This document shows, in pieces, positions 54,935 through 62,864 of a DNA stretch of 64,000 nucleotides. How positions within the stretch are numbered: position 1 is the first letter of the stretch; each line of letters begins with the position of its first letter. The position numbers were made by a program, and so were the translations under genes. This DNA is from Paraflavisolibacter caeni (GTDB taxonomy: Bacteria > Bacteroidota > Bacteroidia > Chitinophagales > Chitinophagaceae). The stretch spans positions 787,751 to 851,750 of the forward strand of contig NZ_JAOTIF010000001.1 in assembly GCF_025628885.1 (NCBI RefSeq). The letters run 5' to 3'. Below the pieces are notes generated by a model that ran no database searches, was not told where the DNA came from, and saw nothing but the letters and a program-made list of their open reading frames with translations.

Positions 54935-56131
54935 TCACAAAAACCAAAGATTCCTCAACCCAAAACCCGGTATCCACCCATCTTTAAAATAGGGTAGAGT
55001 CCGCGCCATCATCTCCGGGTACAAAACACTCACCGGTAAACCCTGCTGCGGCAAAGAACCCCAATACATATGGCCAAACTGGAACACCTGGTCAATCAGC
55101 TCAATAACCACCTCCTTATCTTCAAGCAGCCCTTTATCTGTGCAGTCAAATTCCAACTTGATAGGCAATGGAAAACTATTGTTGTGATCAAAATGCCCAT
55201 TTACAAACTTCCCATTATTATAAAGCAGGTATTGATGTTGTCCAACCTTGATAATGGTACCGCTATTGGGCATGCTGTCTTCCGAATTCATATCGAAGGC
55301 AAGAATATCAGGGCTTTGATGCATAGATATCAAAAAGATGGGAATGGGTTTCGATAATTGCAGTTCCTCTATTGCTTTTTGTATAGGTTCCAGTTCTTTA
55401 GGACTTAATTTCTTGTAAAAATGAATGACCATCCTTGATGGATATTCATGTTCATAAATGTATCTGCTGGTCATGTAACTGATAAAGCCAGCAAGCAGTT
55501 TGACTTCATGCTTCTGGAAAACTTCAAATACTTCGAAAGTGCCATCATTGCTAAAGTTGCACGCACATCCTAGGTAGGGTACACCATCCGCTTTACCTTT
55601 AAAAGCGCTGATGCCAAAGGTAAGCTCACGCTTCACCGGTGCAGTCAGGCGCCAGGGAATCCCGTCTAGTTTGGCCAGCATGGCAACTGCAGCATCGGCA
55701 AGAATTTTTTCAAGAGGTGCATCGGCATCGTTCAGTTGCTCCGCTTTGAATACTTGTAAAGTAATCCCTCTTTCTAATAGGGCATTGATCACTTGATAGT
55801 GAAATGCATTGGCTTTCGGGTCCTCGTCAATGTCCTTATAGGGCGAAATGTATATAGCAATATAAGTGATGTCTCCATACCAGTTGAAGGCATTGTTATC
55901 TAAGGCAATCGTAACTTCCCGGTAGGGATGCTCAAGATCATGAAACACGATATCCAACTCCTCATTTGGGTGGATGTTTAATTGAACATATCTGTGTAAA
56001 CCAGGAAACTGCCCGTGCCCTTTAAATAAATATTGTTGTAAAGTTTCAATTAGGTGCTGGTCCTGGTAGTGTGCTATAAAGAACATTTGGATATAGGGAT
56101 GAGGACAATACTTGTGTGGCTTTAATTCCAT
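54935..56131 (-). CDS. Prokaryotic Argonaute, MID-PIWI part (catalytically degenerate)
   Basis: A 398-aa protein with the layout of the C-terminal half of Argonaute: a MID domain (about residues 1-140, with ITYIAIYISP and ERGITLQVF) and a PIWI domain (about 150-398, with KLDGIPW, YLGCACNFSNDGTFE, SGTIIKVGQHQY and GLPVSVLYPEMMA). The first catalytic aspartate should stand in GISAF but is Ser175, and the usual D of the VIHxD-like strand is missing in VIHFYKK, so it should not slice. The start ATG overlaps the end of the upstream gene by 10 bases. The frame stays open about 34 codons further upstream, with protein-like sequence (WQAYQTGRKKYI), so the gene may once have been joined to its neighbour. 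Confidence 0.75.
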   Translation of the reverse strand: MELKPHKYCPHPYIQMFFIAHYQDQHLIETLQQYLFKGHGQFPGLHRYVQLNIHPNEELDIVFHDLEHPYREVTIALDNNAFNWYGDITYIAIYISPYKDIDEDPKANAFHYQVINALLERGITLQVFKAEQLNDADAPLEKILADAAVAMLAKLDGIPWRLTAPVKRELTFGISAFKGKADGVPYLGCACNFSNDGTFEVFEVFQKHEVKLLAGFISYMTSRYIYEHEYPSRMVIHFYKKLSPKELEPIQKAIEELQLSKPIPIFLISMHQSPDILAFDMNSEDSMPNSGTIIKVGQHQYLLYNNGKFVNGHFDHNNSFPLPIKLEFDCTDKGLLEDKEVVIELIDQVFQFGHMYWGSLPQQGLPVSVLYPEMMARTLPYFKDGWIPGFGLRNLWFL

Positions 56132-56982
56132 GATGTATTTTTTTCTGCCTGTCTGGTACGCTTGCCAGGCTGTTGATGATGATTGTTTTGATGAATAACT
56201 TGCACCAGCTTTGAATTGGCTGGTAAAAATCGATTAAGAACAGGGATGCATGCCCTGAACGCTGCTGTATACAGGTACTGGCTGCAAAAGTCCTTGATGT
56301 ATTGATAATGCGCTGTGTATTGATTAGGTTGCCCTCTTGGAGGTGCTGCCATGCCTAAGGCTTTTCTAAGTCCACTGTTTAATACAGGATATGCACCACC
56401 AAAATCTACATTACCTTCCCGAACATAATCAATATATCTGGCCAGGCGCTTTCCGGCCAATACCCATTCCAAAGTAGTCGTCGGTACAAATGATATATTG
56501 TCGGCTATGCTGCTCTTGAGTACTTCAATAGGCCCCTTGTAAGCGATTACCATTTCAGGTAGATCACTTAATGTCCGTAGTTGCACGCGCAGGAAAAAAC
56601 GCTCGAATCCATAACAATCTGCCGTTTCATTTTCAGGCTCCCAAATGTTGATTCCATTGGTGAAGCCTGGTGCTACAATCAGCTCATCTTGCTCTTTAAA
56701 GTGTTGATGTAGCTTATGGTGGTAATAATGTTGAACAAAGCCTGGGTGGTCAGTCCTTACGTCAATAGCTTGTGAAACAAAACCTTCTTCCGGCTGCTCG
56801 AAAGATGTATATATAAAGTCTGGGGGATTCAGGTCTGGGAAAAGTGTTGCCCACCGTTTAGGAAATCGGCTATTGTTAAGCCGGTAACTATTCGGTTGTT
56901 CTTTCTTGTTAAAATACATCAGGATTGTTTCCTCGGGCCAGTCAAATGGCAGGACATTAGTTTGCAGGTTTTGCTTACTCAT
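56122..56982 (-). CDS. Putative Argonaute N-terminal part (N, linker and possible PAZ/L2 region)
   Basis: A 286-aa protein directly upstream of the MID-PIWI gene, overlapping it by 10 bases. It begins TNVLPFDWPEE, and the middle has FFLRVQLRTLSDLPEMVIAY and later GAYPVLNSGLRKALGM, resembling linker/L2 parts of long pAgos. I see no TIR, SIR2 or nuclease domain, so it is not a typical APAZ effector. The last ~20 residues (QQPGKRTRQAEKNTSWN) look like out-of-frame translation, while the other frame looks natural there. So either a frameshift split one ~690-aa Argonaute, or it is a two-protein Argonaute like AfAgo-N/AfAgo. I start at the ATG at 56982. Confidence 0.55.
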   Translation of the reverse strand: MSKQNLQTNVLPFDWPEETILMYFNKKEQPNSYRLNNSRFPKRWATLFPDLNPPDFIYTSFEQPEEGFVSQAIDVRTDHPGFVQHYYHHKLHQHFKEQDELIVAPGFTNGINIWEPENETADCYGFERFFLRVQLRTLSDLPEMVIAYKGPIEVLKSSIADNISFVPTTTLEWVLAGKRLARYIDYVREGNVDFGGAYPVLNSGLRKALGMAAPPRGQPNQYTAHYQYIKDFCSQYLYTAAFRACIPVLNRFLPANSKLVQVIHQNNHHQQPGKRTRQAEKNTSWN

Positions 56983-57245: not shown

Positions 57246-58052
57246 ATGAGAAAATATGTATTGACACTCTGCCTGCTATTTACTTTATCTTATGCTTTCG
57301 CACAGAAGGATTTACTAAAAGGAATTCATCAGTTCACCCAGTCAACTGAATTAAAAGAAGCTGATCCCCTTGGGAATGAAAAAAAGGACAAGGATGCAAA
57401 TGTTATAAAGAAAACGGTTGAAAGAGGCTGGGAGTTCACGATTGACAGGATTACGAAAGATGGTGATTATGTGATAAGCTTTTTGGAGTGGAGATCCAAT
57501 GACACACTCAATAAGGAATATGTTGTTGAAAATGAGCGATCAAAATATTTTATCTTACCAAAAGCAGAATATGAATTAAGTGCACAGAAGTGGGAAAAGA
57601 AAGGTGGGTTTACTGTGGGTGCAGCAACAACCCTGGTGAAAATAAGACCTGGTAGTGGTGATGACTTAAAAAAGGGCGGCTACCGTGTACCATTCGATTT
57701 TGATAATGATTTTAATCTGGGATTATTGTTTGGTTGGAAACATCAACAAACCTTCGAACCAAATGAAATAGCACATAACTTCCTGGCCGGCTTTGGTATA
57801 ACCTCTATCGGTGTAGATAGTACAACGACGCAAGGATATGTAAAAGTAAAATCAAACCAGTCCGCATTGACTTTATCTCTTGGTTATCTTTTCGAGTACA
57901 ATAAATTTCAAATTGGTGCATTTGCTGGTTACGACCTGGTAGCAGGAGAAGTGGGAAGACAATGGATTTACAGGAATAGACCTTGGATTGGCATCAATTT
58001 AGGCTTTTCTATTTTCAAGGCACAAGGAACCAAAGAGAAACAGGATAATTAA
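57246..58052 (+). CDS. Secreted outer-membrane beta-barrel-like protein
   Basis: A 268-aa protein with a clear signal peptide (cut after SYAFA). The C-terminal ~150 residues alternate in barrel fashion (FNLGLLFGWKH, HNFLAGFGITSIGV, ALTLSLGYLFEYNKFQIGAFAGYDLV). The last strand FSIFKA is followed by a short polar tail, so barrel insertion is less certain. The N-terminal half is charged. No family is recognised. It is divergent from the Argonaute genes, and a strong terminator follows. Confidence 0.7.
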   Translation: MRKYVLTLCLLFTLSYAFAQKDLLKGIHQFTQSTELKEADPLGNEKKDKDANVIKKTVERGWEFTIDRITKDGDYVISFLEWRSNDTLNKEYVVENERSKYFILPKAEYELSAQKWEKKGGFTVGAATTLVKIRPGSGDDLKKGGYRVPFDFDNDFNLGLLFGWKHQQTFEPNEIAHNFLAGFGITSIGVDSTTTQGYVKVKSNQSALTLSLGYLFEYNKFQIGAFAGYDLVAGEVGRQWIYRNRPWIGINLGFSIFKAQGTKEKQDN

Positions 58053-58130: not shown

Positions 58131-58164
58131 CCCAAATCCTCATATCCTCATTTCCTCACCTCCC
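58131..58164. repeat. TCCTCA repeat holding the stop codon of the DUF3987 gene
   Basis: Imperfect units ATCCTCA/TTCCTCA in tandem. The TGA stop of the minus-strand gene (58156-58158) lies inside. A related block is found inside a coding region at 60576-60621. Confidence 0.65.
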
Positions 58165-59973
58165 CAAAATGTCCATTTTCTCGACAACTAAGTTCTGGTA
58201 CTTGTCACGCCCATTATGCTGAAGCATACCCATTTTACAGAATTCAGCAATGTGGCGCTGCGCAGTTTTATCAGGTATACCTAACTTGATGGCTGCCTCC
58301 AGGTATACTTTTCTACCAAAGTTTTTAGGCAGAGATACAAAGAACCGTTCTTTCAGGTCTTTACGTTGTGGCAATTGTTCTTCTTCAGGAAGTTCAGAGA
58401 AAACTTTGGATGCATGTTTCACAAGCGTTTTGACGATATCCTTTGTGATTTGAAAATCCCTGTCCTCACAAAGCAGCTGCCTGGCAATAGTGCCATGCTC
58501 CATAATACGCAAAGCCGAAAAGATCATACTGGTACGAAAAGCAATCAAACCTAATCGCCGCACCGTCGCCAGGTAATCAACACCCTTCAAACTGATATAG
58601 GTCACTTGTATTTGAGAAAAGAATTGATTGAATTGAGCCTGCTGCTCCTCTGTAAGCTGGAACTCTATAGGCTCTTGCTGCTCTTCCAGTTGCTTGTAAA
58701 ATTGAAAGAACTCCTGCCCAAGCTTGCCAAAATAAGCATCCAGGCTGTTATCTGAAGAATAAGAGAATACATTCTTCCATACCGGCTGTACACTCATGTA
58801 GTAGAACATAAAACGGCTGAACAGCCCGTTCTCTGCACTTGGAATTAAAGTGGATACTTGTTTAGGTGTTCCGGTTAAAATAGTAGAGATACAAGGGCTG
58901 TCTATATCTACATACTCCCTGTCTGTACGCCGGTAATAGGAAATGGTCTCATGATGAAATGCTTTCCGGAAACCATCACTGTAATTTCCATAGTCACTCT
59001 TGAAAGCCTGCGCCAGGGTATCTCCCTCCGTTTCAAAGATCATTCCCCTGCCTTCATTTTCATGCAACAATTGAAACACACCAGTAGTACTGTTATTTGC
59101 CGGTATCAACAGCATCTTTTCAGCCGGCTTACCGGGCTTTTCTACACTACTATCTTTTTCATTCTGGTTGAACTCGGCCAATAACAGGTTATATTCCTTT
59201 TTCAACAAACGGGCCTGTTCCCTCAGGTGCTTGTGAATCGGCAACACCAACTGCTTGCAATGCACCAGGCGGCCTTTACCTGCTGATGCTCTCGCGGTAA
59301 TAAAAAGGAATAAGTTGGAAAACACCTGCTTGCCATCATAGATACCATAAATTTTAGGCAGGCAGGAACTCAGGGCCACCAGCGATCCCAAAAGTAAAAT
59401 ATCCCGCTCTTCATTCGAGGTGGCCAGCGCAACTGCCTTCTTTAAAAAATGGGGGACCTCTTCATAAATCCCTGCAGGCAGGGTAGGAGGCCCTTGCTCA
59501 AGTTCTTCTGCTGGCCCGGGCTCCGGTTGCAACTCCTGCTGCACCTGCTCTTGCTCTACCTTATCCTGCATTGCCTGATCCTCAGAGCCTGTGCGTTGAT
59601 ACTCCACTTTAGGGGTTGGGGGTGTGGCTGTGGCTATCCCCGCCTGTTGGGCATAATAGAAAAAGGTTTTAAGCGTAATACCGCTGCCTTTAGCCTTCAG
59701 GCATTGGTCATACTGCTTGTCACATTCCCCTTTTTCATACCGGGGATAAAAACAACTGACCCTGTGAAAATATTCCCTGCCAGCTGCGCCAAAAGCACTG
59801 GCCAGCCCAAAGCCTATATTACGCCAGTGGGTGTAAGAAGCTGTAATATCCACCCTTGCTGCTTCTATGCTGCTGATGACAAGTTCTACCTCAGAGGCAT
59901 CAGTCTGGTAAACCGGTTGATGACTATCCTCCTTCTTTATCCAATCCTGTGGATCAAATTCTTTTCTTTCCAT
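58156..59973 (-). CDS. DUF3987 protein with PriCT_2-type N-terminus
   Basis: A 605-aa protein typical of Bacteroidota integrative elements. The N-terminal ~120 residues resemble the primase C-terminal domain 2 (SYTHWRNIGFGLASAFG, then CLKAKGSGITLKTFFYYA). The rest is DUF3987, a helicase-like ATPase: ARASAGKGRLVH is a Walker A-like loop (GKG rather than GKS/T), and later blocks include LIPANNSTTGVFQLLHENEG and FETEGDTLAQAFK. It probably helps replicate the excised element. Its start overlaps the stop of the BT4734-like gene (TAATG). Confidence 0.85.
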   Translation of the reverse strand: MERKEFDPQDWIKKEDSHQPVYQTDASEVELVISSIEAARVDITASYTHWRNIGFGLASAFGAAGREYFHRVSCFYPRYEKGECDKQYDQCLKAKGSGITLKTFFYYAQQAGIATATPPTPKVEYQRTGSEDQAMQDKVEQEQVQQELQPEPGPAEELEQGPPTLPAGIYEEVPHFLKKAVALATSNEERDILLLGSLVALSSCLPKIYGIYDGKQVFSNLFLFITARASAGKGRLVHCKQLVLPIHKHLREQARLLKKEYNLLLAEFNQNEKDSSVEKPGKPAEKMLLIPANNSTTGVFQLLHENEGRGMIFETEGDTLAQAFKSDYGNYSDGFRKAFHHETISYYRRTDREYVDIDSPCISTILTGTPKQVSTLIPSAENGLFSRFMFYYMSVQPVWKNVFSYSSDNSLDAYFGKLGQEFFQFYKQLEEQQEPIEFQLTEEQQAQFNQFFSQIQVTYISLKGVDYLATVRRLGLIAFRTSMIFSALRIMEHGTIARQLLCEDRDFQITKDIVKTLVKHASKVFSELPEEEQLPQRKDLKERFFVSLPKNFGRKVYLEAAIKLGIPDKTAQRHIAEFCKMGMLQHNGRDKYQNLVVEKMDILGR

Positions 59974-61007
59974 TAATGTAAATATTTAGGATTGATATAA
60001 GCATTAGGATCATAAGGCAGGAAACACGCCCTGGCCACATCCTTGCCTGACGGATCCATCTTTAGCCCGTACGTTTTAAAAAGGTAAGCACCAATGCTTT
60101 GGGCCCACTCCTGGTGTGATGTTTTATTAGTATTGATGGGAATGATCCACTTGAGCCCATCGCCGGAAGGAGAGACAAACAGCATTTCTGTTACAAAGTA
60201 CGGATCCTTCAACAGCAGTCGCTTCAATCCTTCAACATCTGGCACATGATCGAAGTCTACAGTGAAAAGCCCCGAATGTATGACCAATGCATTATTTTCC
60301 CGGCTGGAGAAAATGCCGGAAAAAGTAACATAATCAAAATTCTTCTCTTTAAACTTACGGGCTTTCTCTTTATCTGTGATGGCCCTTAGTTTTTGGGTGA
60401 CATTTTCAAACTGGGTACTGGTAATGACCTTATAAATATCCACAAGGCTGCCATATCCAAGAGGCACGGTATTTTGGATGGGCTTCCTGAAATAGCTGAA
60501 TTGAGGAGATCTGACTTTATATACTTTTCTGCTTTTCATGTCAGTGGGATTTTGCGGATGATGACAAAAATGGGTCAATGAGGAAATGGGGATTTGAGGA
60601 TTCTGAGGAAGTTGAGGATGTTGAAGCTTTTGACCATTGGCTTTTTTAGTTTGGCGCTCTACCTGTTTTTTGCCAATGCCCAGCTCCATATCCTCGTCGA
60701 TCCTTTCCAGCAAAGCTGCTCCTTTTAGTTGGTAGTGCTGTGCGGCAAAAGCAAATACATTGCCTGCAAAACTTTGAACGGCTGTATCATAATGCATCGC
60801 CATATCCTTCCTGAGATACACCATCAGCGTATGTTCATCCCCGTTGAAAGGGTTTTTAGCCGGCTTGCATTTCTTGCCTTTTAAAACAAGAACCGTTTCA
60901 TCCTTGGGATAATAATGATGCAGTATATGGGCATACACCTTCATGCCATAATACGTAAGATCGAGAATGTCTTTCCTGGTGATGATGATGTCTTTATTTT
61001 GTTCCAT
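59973..61007 (-). CDS. BT4734/BF3469-family (VirE N-terminal-like) mobile-element protein
   Basis: A 344-aa protein found beside DUF3987 in Bacteroidota elements. The second half carries the BT4734/VirE_N core, a degenerate primase-like fold: VTFSGIFSSRENNALVIHSGLFTVDFDHV, SPSGDGLKWIIPI and DVARACFLPYDP. Residues 130-155 (PQLPQNPQIPISSLTHFC) are encoded by a short TCCTCA repeat that inserted without breaking the frame, a likely variable linker. It overlaps both neighbours, so it belongs to a tight three-gene operon. Confidence 0.8.
   Translation of the reverse strand: MEQNKDIIITRKDILDLTYYGMKVYAHILHHYYPKDETVLVLKGKKCKPAKNPFNGDEHTLMVYLRKDMAMHYDTAVQSFAGNVFAFAAQHYQLKGAALLERIDEDMELGIGKKQVERQTKKANGQKLQHPQLPQNPQIPISSLTHFCHHPQNPTDMKSRKVYKVRSPQFSYFRKPIQNTVPLGYGSLVDIYKVITSTQFENVTQKLRAITDKEKARKFKEKNFDYVTFSGIFSSRENNALVIHSGLFTVDFDHVPDVEGLKRLLLKDPYFVTEMLFVSPSGDGLKWIIPINTNKTSHQEWAQSIGAYLFKTYGLKMDPSGKDVARACFLPYDPNAYINPKYLH
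60576..60621. repeat. TCCTCA-type repeat inside a coding sequence
   Basis: Imperfect GAGGA(A/T) units resembling 58131-58164 in reverse. It lies in frame in the BT4734-like gene and encodes a Pro/Gln-rich linker. Confidence 0.6.
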
Positions 61008-61491
61008 GAGTATCGGGTTTTGAGGTTACATAACTTTGTTCCAATAGGGCTTCTACATCGCTGACCTTGTAGTAGAGTTTGTGCTCGATATGGGTGAAAG
61101 GCAGACTGCCGTTGTCGCGCAACGTTTGTAATTTTCTTTTGCTGATATGCAGTGCCTGCATCACATCCTGGCTGTCGATCCATTGTTCATTCAGCTTGTC
61201 TGCGTTTGATTTTTCCAGTAAAAAAGAAGTGACCACTTGTTTCAGTTCATCCTTGGTAAAATTGCGTTTGCGCAGCAGCCAGGTATCCAGCTCCGTTCTT
61301 CGGAAGAAGATCATCTTCCCATTGGGTTTATAATGAGGAATGCCCCCCTGGCTGACAAGCCTGTACATATGAGCGTTGGGAAAGTTGCAGTACAGGCAGG
61401 CTTCACTGAAAGTCATGACCTCTTTCAGGTAAATACTTTGGTTCTTGATGAGACCTACGATTTCATCAAGTCGTTTGAAAATTTCGTCCAT
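60994..61491 (-). CDS. Double helix-turn-helix (excisionase-like) protein
   Basis: A 165-aa protein with two HTH_17/excisionase-type domains. The first is about residues 20-70 (TFSEACLYCNFPNAHMYRLVSQGGIPHYK...FFRRTELDTWL), the second about 105-155 (DSQDVMQALHISKRKLQTLRDNGSLPF...YYKVSDVEALL). It probably binds DNA for excision or to control the following genes. I start at the ATG at 61491; an upstream start would add 28 unusual residues. It overlaps the BT4734-like gene by 14 bases. Confidence 0.8.
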   Translation of the reverse strand: MDEIFKRLDEIVGLIKNQSIYLKEVMTFSEACLYCNFPNAHMYRLVSQGGIPHYKPNGKMIFFRRTELDTWLLRKRNFTKDELKQVVTSFLLEKSNADKLNEQWIDSQDVMQALHISKRKLQTLRDNGSLPFTHIEHKLYYKVSDVEALLEQSYVTSKPDTHGTK

Positions 61492-61692
61492 TTTAATAAC
61501 GAAGATTATTGTGATAAAATGGACTTCAGCGCTAAAGTCAACTCCTGTTTCCGGAGTCAGTGTGAAATTGTGCAAAAGAATTCAAACTGCTAAAATCCGG
61601 ATTTTCTATTTTTCGCATGTTGCTGAACGTCAGTTTCTTATAAGCTTCCCTGGTATTTTGCTCTGGTACGAACTATGGGAAAATCCGGACTT

Positions 61693-62736
61693 TCATAACT
61701 TGTCTATAAGGGAAATCCAGAGATTATTTTGATTATTTTCCAGGAAACGGCTCAATGCTCCCTTCTTGCTAAGGGTTCTGAATTGCTTATCAATATGGAT
61801 ATTGTACCTGCGATTGAAAAATTTCAGCACATCCTTTGCCGTAAGCGTATATCTACGCCCATTTATAAAGTAATACTTTTGAAAATATCCCTTTTGAAAA
61901 GCAACAAGGTAGATTGCCGCCATTCTTAAATAATTACCCATGGGCTTTCGTTGAAACTCGTAATCATGGTCAATAAGATGGTGTTCAAACAACACACGCT
62001 CCAGCCGCGCAAATCTTTCTTGATTAGCAACGATCTTTTCATAGGACAACACACCCGGTACAGGTGGTCTCACATCATACATCCTGGGTTGGAACACTTT
62101 TTCAGTTGACGGAACATAGGTGGTCTGCACAGGATGGATAGATGTTGAACACACCTTTACAATGAATGACCGCTCAGGTGCCGTTTCTCCAAAATAGTGC
62201 TGGTGGATATCCTCCTCACAAAATACTTCCATGTCGATATAAGGCGCATACCTTTCTTGCAATTCCAGGTAAAGGCGGATCAACTGGAATTTCATCAGCT
62301 GGAGGATATAGGTCGCATCAGCTGTGTCACACTCAGTGGTATGGCGAAAATAACTGGGCGGTAAAATGATGTCACTCTTATATCCTTTGCTATTGATAAT
62401 AAAAGCCGTTCTCCTTAAATGTTGATCAACATTTTTGAGAACTTTAGTAGCAAGGAAGGTCCTCTCATCCTCACTGTTAGCAGCACCCATCTCTCGGTCG
62501 AAATCGCTAAGTATGCTTCTAAATTCATGCTCAATAATAGCCGCATAATATTGTCTCTTCGGCCCAACCGGCTTCAGGAAATTCATATCGAATATCGGCC
62601 GCACATGGAACGTTTCCAAAGTCAATTCATGCAGCAGGTGCTGGTATTTCACCGCTGAATTGGAGTCTTTCGTCCAGGGATTAAGAACACCATAAAGTAT
62701 CTGGTCATACAATTTTAAAACATAATACAGTCTCAT
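61693..62736 (-). CDS. RteC-domain protein of an integrative element
   Basis: A 347-aa protein resembling RteC, the regulator that switches on excision of Bacteroides conjugative transposons. The C-terminal half has the two RteC helical segments, including YLRMAAIYLVAFQKGYFQKYYF and LTAKDVLKFFNRRYNIHID. The ATG at 62736 is chosen; a TTG at 62790 extends it by 18 residues. With the HTH, BT4734 and DUF3987 genes downstream it forms the regulatory and replication module of a mobile element. No integrase is visible. Confidence 0.75.
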   Translation of the reverse strand: MRLYYVLKLYDQILYGVLNPWTKDSNSAVKYQHLLHELTLETFHVRPIFDMNFLKPVGPKRQYYAAIIEHEFRSILSDFDREMGAANSEDERTFLATKVLKNVDQHLRRTAFIINSKGYKSDIILPPSYFRHTTECDTADATYILQLMKFQLIRLYLELQERYAPYIDMEVFCEEDIHQHYFGETAPERSFIVKVCSTSIHPVQTTYVPSTEKVFQPRMYDVRPPVPGVLSYEKIVANQERFARLERVLFEHHLIDHDYEFQRKPMGNYLRMAAIYLVAFQKGYFQKYYFINGRRYTLTAKDVLKFFNRRYNIHIDKQFRTLSKKGALSRFLENNQNNLWISLIDKL

Positions 62737-62864
62737 AGAGCAAAGCCTTATCTCAGGATAATTAGTTAGTCTTAGTTTGATTAATTGCAATAATACCTGA
62801 TCATATAAAATATCATTATGATTTCAATAACAAACCCAGGTCCGGACATATGATAAACCATCAG

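Follow-up and report, generated by a model that had tools for sequence, protein, structure and literature searches.

The BPAN, BPAS and BPAM systems share an inactive long-B Argonaute (pAgo) as their common chassis, according to the sections of Song et al. 2023 cited here (PMC10620215). The same sections describe a further long-B subclade, og_54, which is linked to a VirE N-terminal domain and whose function they leave open. A different organization is reported in the cited part of Manakova et al. 2024 (PMC10954474) for AfAgo-N/AfAgo, in which the two halves of a PAZ-less, slicer-dead Argonaute are separate proteins that work as a heterodimer, with an effector gene downstream.

Here we analyse a stretch of 64,000 nucleotides from Paraflavisolibacter caeni, referred to as the window, which contains an Argonaute encoded in two overlapping frames. 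A first-pass annotation of the sequence had offered two readings of this locus: one long-B-like Argonaute of ~690 aa, broken by a frameshift or joined by programmed frameshifting, or a genuine two-protein Argonaute like AfAgo-N/AfAgo. A literature search, with subscription journals mostly outside its scope, yielded among the matches listed no paper that we recognised as dealing with this Argonaute locus.

Organization of the locus

The two ORFs, A and B, lie on the minus strand with an overlap of 10 bases (Table 1), exactly where the first-pass annotation had placed them. Together they encode one Argonaute, ORF A its N-terminal half and ORF B its MID-PIWI half. A search for PIWI similarity in 54935-56131, set beforehand as a test of the MID-PIWI assignment, returned both Pfam Piwi (31.2 bits against a cut-off of 28.9) and the PADLOC Argonaute model. 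A search of the window's own genome gave one Piwi match. Pfam returned no match for ORF A. PADLOC model PDLC02385 (length 674) is matched consecutively by the two proteins, with E-values of 7.1e-52 for ORF A (positions 1-272) and 4.1e-127 for ORF B (283-674), and the proposal that ORF A is an Argonaute N-terminal half was borne out by this match and by the structural comparisons below. The frame of ORF B is indeed open for 34 codons upstream of its ATG, which would give 432 instead of 398 aa. With respect to a PAZ domain, the 286 aa of ORF A can be set beside the ~680-730 aa of the relatives' single chains.

Table 1. Features of the Argonaute locus and its upstream gene row, in window coordinates.
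Feature	Coordinates	Strand	Basis
ORF A, 286 aa, N-L1-L2 half of putatively PAZ-less Argonaute	56122..56982	-	PADLOC PDLC02385 1-272 of 674; fold model and Foldseek
ORF B, 398 aa, MID-PIWI half, predicted slicer-dead	54935..56131	-	Pfam Piwi; PADLOC PDLC02385 283-674; fold match to AfAgo
Zone holding the single frame change	56131..56236	-	Scores of every junction against the profile; single-shift alignment to the whole profile
Possible -1 slip site in frame A, heptamer A_AAA_AAT, six bases upstream of ORF B ATG	56137..56143	-	Read from sequence
S175 at site of first catalytic Asp (Gly in relatives; G to S in window)	55607..55609	-	G463 invariant in 20/20 relatives
MID guide-pocket motif H111, I115, Q126, K154 (Y, K, Q, K in relatives)	55670..55801	-	Column counts; alignment with AfAgo 123 and 127
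268-aa gene between helicase gene and pAgo	57246..58052	+	Relatives in 3 of 17 other genomes of the genus
PriCT_2 and DUF3987 protein, putative helicase of element row	58156..59973	-	Pfam DUF3987 4.5e-58; homologues upstream of pAgo in relatives
BT4734-like_N primase-type protein, third gene upstream of pAgo	59973..61007	-	Pfam PF08800 1.3e-19
Double HTH_17 protein	60994..61575	-	Pfam, two stretches
DUF6617 protein, last gene found in row	61693..62790	-	Pfam 5e-16

Predicted folds and place among Argonautes

AlphaFold models of each half were built with 46 relatives. For the ORF B model (pLDDT 87.2), the top PDB fold returned by Foldseek is AfAgo (8ok9_A, E = 3.9e-18), and AfAgo and RsAgo are the leading matches. 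The ORF A model has a pLDDT of 87.7, with values below 50 for the last 24 residues. Almost every PDB match listed for it is an Argonaute chain, although the TM-scores of these matches are low (0.31-0.51), and AfAgo-N (8ok9_C) appears among them at an E-value of only 2.1e-3. A profile of 20 relatives ranks AfAgo, EcAgo and RsAgo well above all other matches (2e-25 to 3e-17, the next match following at 1.9e-5). We take these three proteins, in part after the cited papers, to be long-B Argonautes. The best reading of ORFs A and B is that they would form one putatively PAZ-less, slicer-dead long-B Argonaute (PADLOC PDLC02385), presumably of the VirE_N-linked og_54 type as this is described in print.

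A single frame change near the L2/MID seam

To locate the break, the locus was aligned with a profile of 20 intact relatives, from which L059 (763 aa, another Argonaute subclade) and ORFs below 650 aa were excluded, using a frameshift-aware Viterbi procedure with our own penalties, so that its scores are relative. Profile positions 1-683 are covered with exactly one frame change, at 636.8 bits, whereas the best path confined to one frame reaches 470.8. The frame breaks at the border of the N-L1-L2 and MID-PIWI parts, near the L2/MID seam. Junctions spread over ~100 bases differ by a few bits only, and the profile scores do not fix its exact place; the family profile extends into both candidate continuations, to position 282 in ORF A and from position 252 in ORF B.

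The zone of the frame change contains a run of seven A. It also contains the heptamer A_AAA_AAT (Table 1), at which a junction scores within 1.8 bits of the best one. The window as a whole has 0.0069 such in-frame heptamers per codon, so that ~0.23 would be expected in the 34-codon overlap. No stable structure was found downstream of it (z +0.75 and +1.40, weaker than shuffles, with pseudoknots outside the model). Of the programmed frameshifting suggested earlier, the in-frame slip site is thus present, and the downstream structure was not found.

Relatives are single chains

We sampled 394 genomes of the family, 396 of the order and 395 of the phylum, and found matches in 31, 28 and 24 of them, respectively, the window's own genome being counted each time. 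Forty places outside the window, tallied by hand, match with an E-value of 1e-30 or better over nearly all of ORF B. These include G336 and G656 (two pieces, one frame); partial matches (G076, G394, G264:C303 and shorter) and distant ones (for example G951:C22, E = 7e-13) were left out. A single open frame of 672-783 aa is present in 39 of the 40 places. The fortieth (G437) also matches the profile in one frame, but this frame is interrupted by two stops, in a region where some bases are masked. A second collection was scanned with ORF B alone, which confirmed no relative, and successfully with the 20 relatives. The best 80 of 227 relatives, a selection favouring intact copies, and one viral contig gave 81 loci. 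An open frame of 660 aa or more is present in 79 of them, and the remaining two start at a contig edge. The two-ORF order of the window occurs in none of the 40 places and in none of these 81 loci.

Comparison of homologues, proposed in the first-pass annotation as the way to tell one ORF from a conserved pair, hence returned one ORF. Because the relatives are single chains and one frame change restores the whole profile, the reading of a ~690 aa long-B-like Argonaute broken by a frameshift is supported, and that of a genuine two-protein Argonaute finds no comparative backing in the relatives examined.

Other copies of the gene are broken as well. One lies in three pieces over two frames (G076), one has an in-frame stop and ends near profile position 409 (G060), and one keeps positions 414-683 alone, in a frame with stops (G394). 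Short C-terminal remnants, not all of them checked for contig edges, are present in G167, G308, G127, G264, G647 and G781. The closest relative of ORF B is ~45% identical. A search of phages for relatives of the window Argonaute gave no match, and nine plasmid records matched at 19-24% identity. An 18 kb IMG/VR viral contig carries a pAgo of the window family (L147:4445-6493, 59% identical to the query). Short C-terminal pAgo remnants, some with stops, were also seen at L029, L031, L033 and L061:2159-2296 in other genomes of the family, and they suggest that the pAgo gene is commonly lost.

Slicer site and guide pocket

The PIWI domain carries no catalytic tetrad in any of the 20 relatives or in the window: the site of the first Asp is occupied by Gly or Ser, and the IHFYK strand has no Asp. 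G461, G463, H525, F526, Y527 and K528 are invariant in 20/20 relatives. The degenerate catalytic residues reported at the outset, S175 and the Asp-less strand, are real, yet the G463/HFYK state is that of every relative in the profile. Since loss of the slicer residues is common to the whole family, it is no sign of decay.

The MID domain differs from the family in another way. After dereplication at 85% identity of 99 relatives (contig-edge loci L126 and L129 excluded), 62 remained, and Tyr, Lys, Gln and Lys of the guide pocket are each kept in 62/62. In the window these residues are His, Ile, Gln and Lys, the Tyr having changed to His and the first Lys to Ile; neither the Gln, the second Lys nor the C-terminal Leu has changed. 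The columns of H111 and I115 align with AfAgo residues 123 and 127, which we take to be residues that hold the guide 5' phosphate. The Y-K-Q-K guide-5'-phosphate motif, usual in long-B Argonautes if not universal, is not intact in the window copy. The section of PMC6299218 cited here names the MID residues by which RsAgo anchors the guide 5' phosphate. By its definition ~20% of long pAgos have altered 'MID*' pockets, so that a lost pocket does not by itself imply a lost protein. The putative loss of the MID pocket, rather than that of the slicer, is the telling change of the window copy. Neither these substitutions nor the mobile-element setting described below had been raised in the first-pass annotation.

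Rate of change

In the ORF B half, 20 of the 90 columns that at least 95% of relatives conserve are altered, which places the window first of 63 (the next shows 15/96); at the 85% cut the figure is 30 of 126. The ORF A half shows fewer deviations than expected, 0/11 and 1/21 at the same two cuts. When columns shared with outgroups are considered, the window and the intact L041 both deviate at 7 of 51, and stricter cuts give 5 versus 4 of 33 and 3 versus 2 of 24; the means for the relatives are 0.55, 0.24 and 0.15 at the three cuts. Both halves have the longest tips among the 63 family rows (ORF B 1.82, ORF A 1.51). The B/A tip ratio of 1.21, compared to a median of 0.50, is second of 37 after L041 (1.48). 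The pAgo at L041:7535-9607 is intact and combines a fast-changing MID-PIWI half (15/96 conserved columns changed, B/A tip ratio 1.48) with a MID pocket that is kept.

The tree places ORF B within the family, on a fully supported branch of 38 rows, although the placement of so long a row is unsure; the changes in the window thus look derived. Fast change extends beyond the Argonaute, for the tip of the window VirE_N gene is long too (1.4); that of the DUF3987 gene is moderate (0.51). We read the deviations and long tips as reflecting relaxed constraint, of which they are no proof. Since the one break is all that interrupts the 684 open codons of the two frames, any decay would be recent.

A putative mobile-element setting

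The gene row upstream of the window pAgo resembles that of its relatives, in which pAgo stands last, with a BT4734-type primase and a DUF3987 helicase and, in some, HTH, DUF6617, a tyrosine integrase or a type III restriction system. We presume that BT4734-like_N (PF08800) is the domain formerly named VirE_N, and that the VirE_N domain of og_54 is this Pfam family; a gene of this kind is present a few genes upstream on the same strand (PF08800, 59973-61007). The part of PMC5862659 cited here counts the BT4734-like proteins as a family of archaeo-eukaryotic primases and predicts a mobile-element helicase for DUF3987. Primase/helicase homologues lie upstream of pAgo, within 9 kb, in 42/61 relatives and an integrase in 17/61, and in 19/61 no such gene could be recognised over this distance. 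Downstream, homologues of the primase/helicase or integrase genes were found in none of the 54 relatives with a full downstream flank. Type III restriction-modification genes lie upstream of pAgo on the same strand in 13/61 loci with full flank, so that several defence genes seem to belong to the element row.

In the window, a tblastn search with the relatives' integrases gave no match, and the same holds for the 9 kb beyond it (L062). The downstream neighbour of pAgo is a convergent 1036-aa gene. No effector-type gene adjoins the pAgo: we recognised neither a nuclease nor a SIR2 effector and, in searches not dedicated to membrane proteins, no membrane effector. A second HTH - VirE_N - DUF3987 row is present in the same genome (L148:8117-11584, contig C19), with no pAgo or integrase homologue in 19 kb.

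Flavihumibacter stibioxidans, Chitinophaga terrae and two Sphingobacteriales MAGs carry nearly identical pAgos (~98%; 9001-11058 in L067, L068, L069 and L088). Of five pairs compared, four have a DNA match that breaks off where the pAgo gene ends, and in the fifth the match starts there and runs downstream. Such identity across genera, with a DNA match bounded by the pAgo end, points to horizontal transfer with flank exchange. No repeat longer than 12 bases is shared between the pAgo 3' end and the integrase side in L035, L037, L039, L040 and L055 (the last with 196 bases upstream), and no convincing attachment-site repeat was found in the window. The invariant C-terminal codons were considered as an attachment core and dropped because they vary synonymously. 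Among the 17 other genomes of the genus, those with a recognisable left-flank protein have it at only ~21-36% identity, too little for an empty-site comparison.

Discussion

The window most probably holds a decaying single-chain long-B Argonaute within a relic element. An intact relative may act as a guide-loaded sensor on a mobile element, defending the element or its host against competitors. In the window copy, the frame would have been broken once near the L2/MID seam, leaving at most two separate halves, and a MID pocket deprived of its two guide-5'-phosphate residues, Tyr and Lys, would bind a guide weakly or not at all. The element, for which no integrase was found in the window or 9 kb beyond, may itself be a relic. 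Decay is favoured by the single PADLOC model spanning both ORFs, the single-frame relatives, the loss of the MID Tyr and Lys, the longest tips, the missing integrase and the broken copies G076, G060, G394 and G437. Against it stand the 684 open codons, an ORF A without excess deviations, the equal score of L041 on outgroup-shared columns, the long VirE_N tip and the retained Gln, Lys and Leu. A parallel exists in one A. fulgidus strain, in which, according to the cited part of PMC10954474, a small deletion gives the AfAgo-N gene a premature stop.

Alternatively, the two ORFs might form a working split Argonaute, translated from one message with re-initiation of ORF B at the ATG overlapping the ORF A stop and assembled like AfAgo-N/AfAgo. 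The ten-base overlap and the position of the break, at the same seam as in AfAgo-N/AfAgo, would suit such a pair, both halves are modelled as complete domains, and the cited part of PMC10954474 reports that long-B pAgos were split several times. The two-ORF order is however seen in no relative among the 40 places and 81 loci, the guide pocket is damaged, and the gene next to ORF B is a convergent one and not of effector type; we consider this reading unlikely. A sequence or assembly error in an intact, fast-changing long-B Argonaute with an altered MID pocket seems to us improbable too. A single small frame change would bring the ORFs into line with the family, the zone holds a seven-A run and the assembly is a draft of 89 contigs, but the other window ORFs of at least 250 aa remain open through 23 A/T runs of seven or more, and an error would leave the pocket loss and the long branch unexplained. 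There is a still smaller chance that the window holds a recently split two-subunit Argonaute, loosened from its element and devoid of a 5'-phosphate pocket, that would act through coupled translation or frameshifting as a guide-independent or 5'-OH-guide nucleic-acid-binding pair. Least probable of all is programmed -1 frameshifting or transcript slippage joining the frames at A_AAA_AAT (56143-56137) into one protein of ~682 aa, for although the shift has the right sense, the junction scores well and the length fits the family, the relatives read the seam in one frame, no stable downstream structure was found and such a heptamer is not rare by chance.

With decay as the preferred reading, the striking two-frame Argonaute becomes a checkable case of it, and the locus most likely represents an Argonaute of an already described kind and no new two-part defence system. 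If the window copy were functional, it would show a split at its very beginning, combined with an unusual guide pocket. For the VirE_N-linked long-B Argonautes, which are poorly understood, a setting emerges, downstream and on the same strand of primase/helicase and integrase genes in many Bacteroidota. This position and the ~98% identity across genera suggest that they travel with mobile elements, which they may serve.

Compared to BPAN, BPAS and BPAM, as characterised in the cited sections of PMC10620215, the window pAgo would share the inactive long-B chassis and differs in its surroundings, where we recognised neither a nuclease or SIR2 effector nor, in searches not dedicated to membrane proteins, a membrane one. 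AfAgo-N/AfAgo, in the cited part of PMC10954474, likewise has separate N-L1-L2 and MID-PIWI frames and is slicer-dead, would share the absence of PAZ with the window copy, and includes the top PDB match of ORF B; its split works as a heterodimer and is followed by an effector gene, whereas no relative examined shares the split of the window copy and no effector gene was recognised beside it. From the og_54 long-B pAgos of PMC10620215, the window copy differs in its two frames, its altered MID pocket and the opposite-strand gene lying between. The likeness, drawn from the descriptions in the cited sections, lies in two features: both are slicer-dead, and both have a VirE_N/BT4734 gene upstream on the same strand, the third gene in the window and the '2nd to 8th' in that paper.
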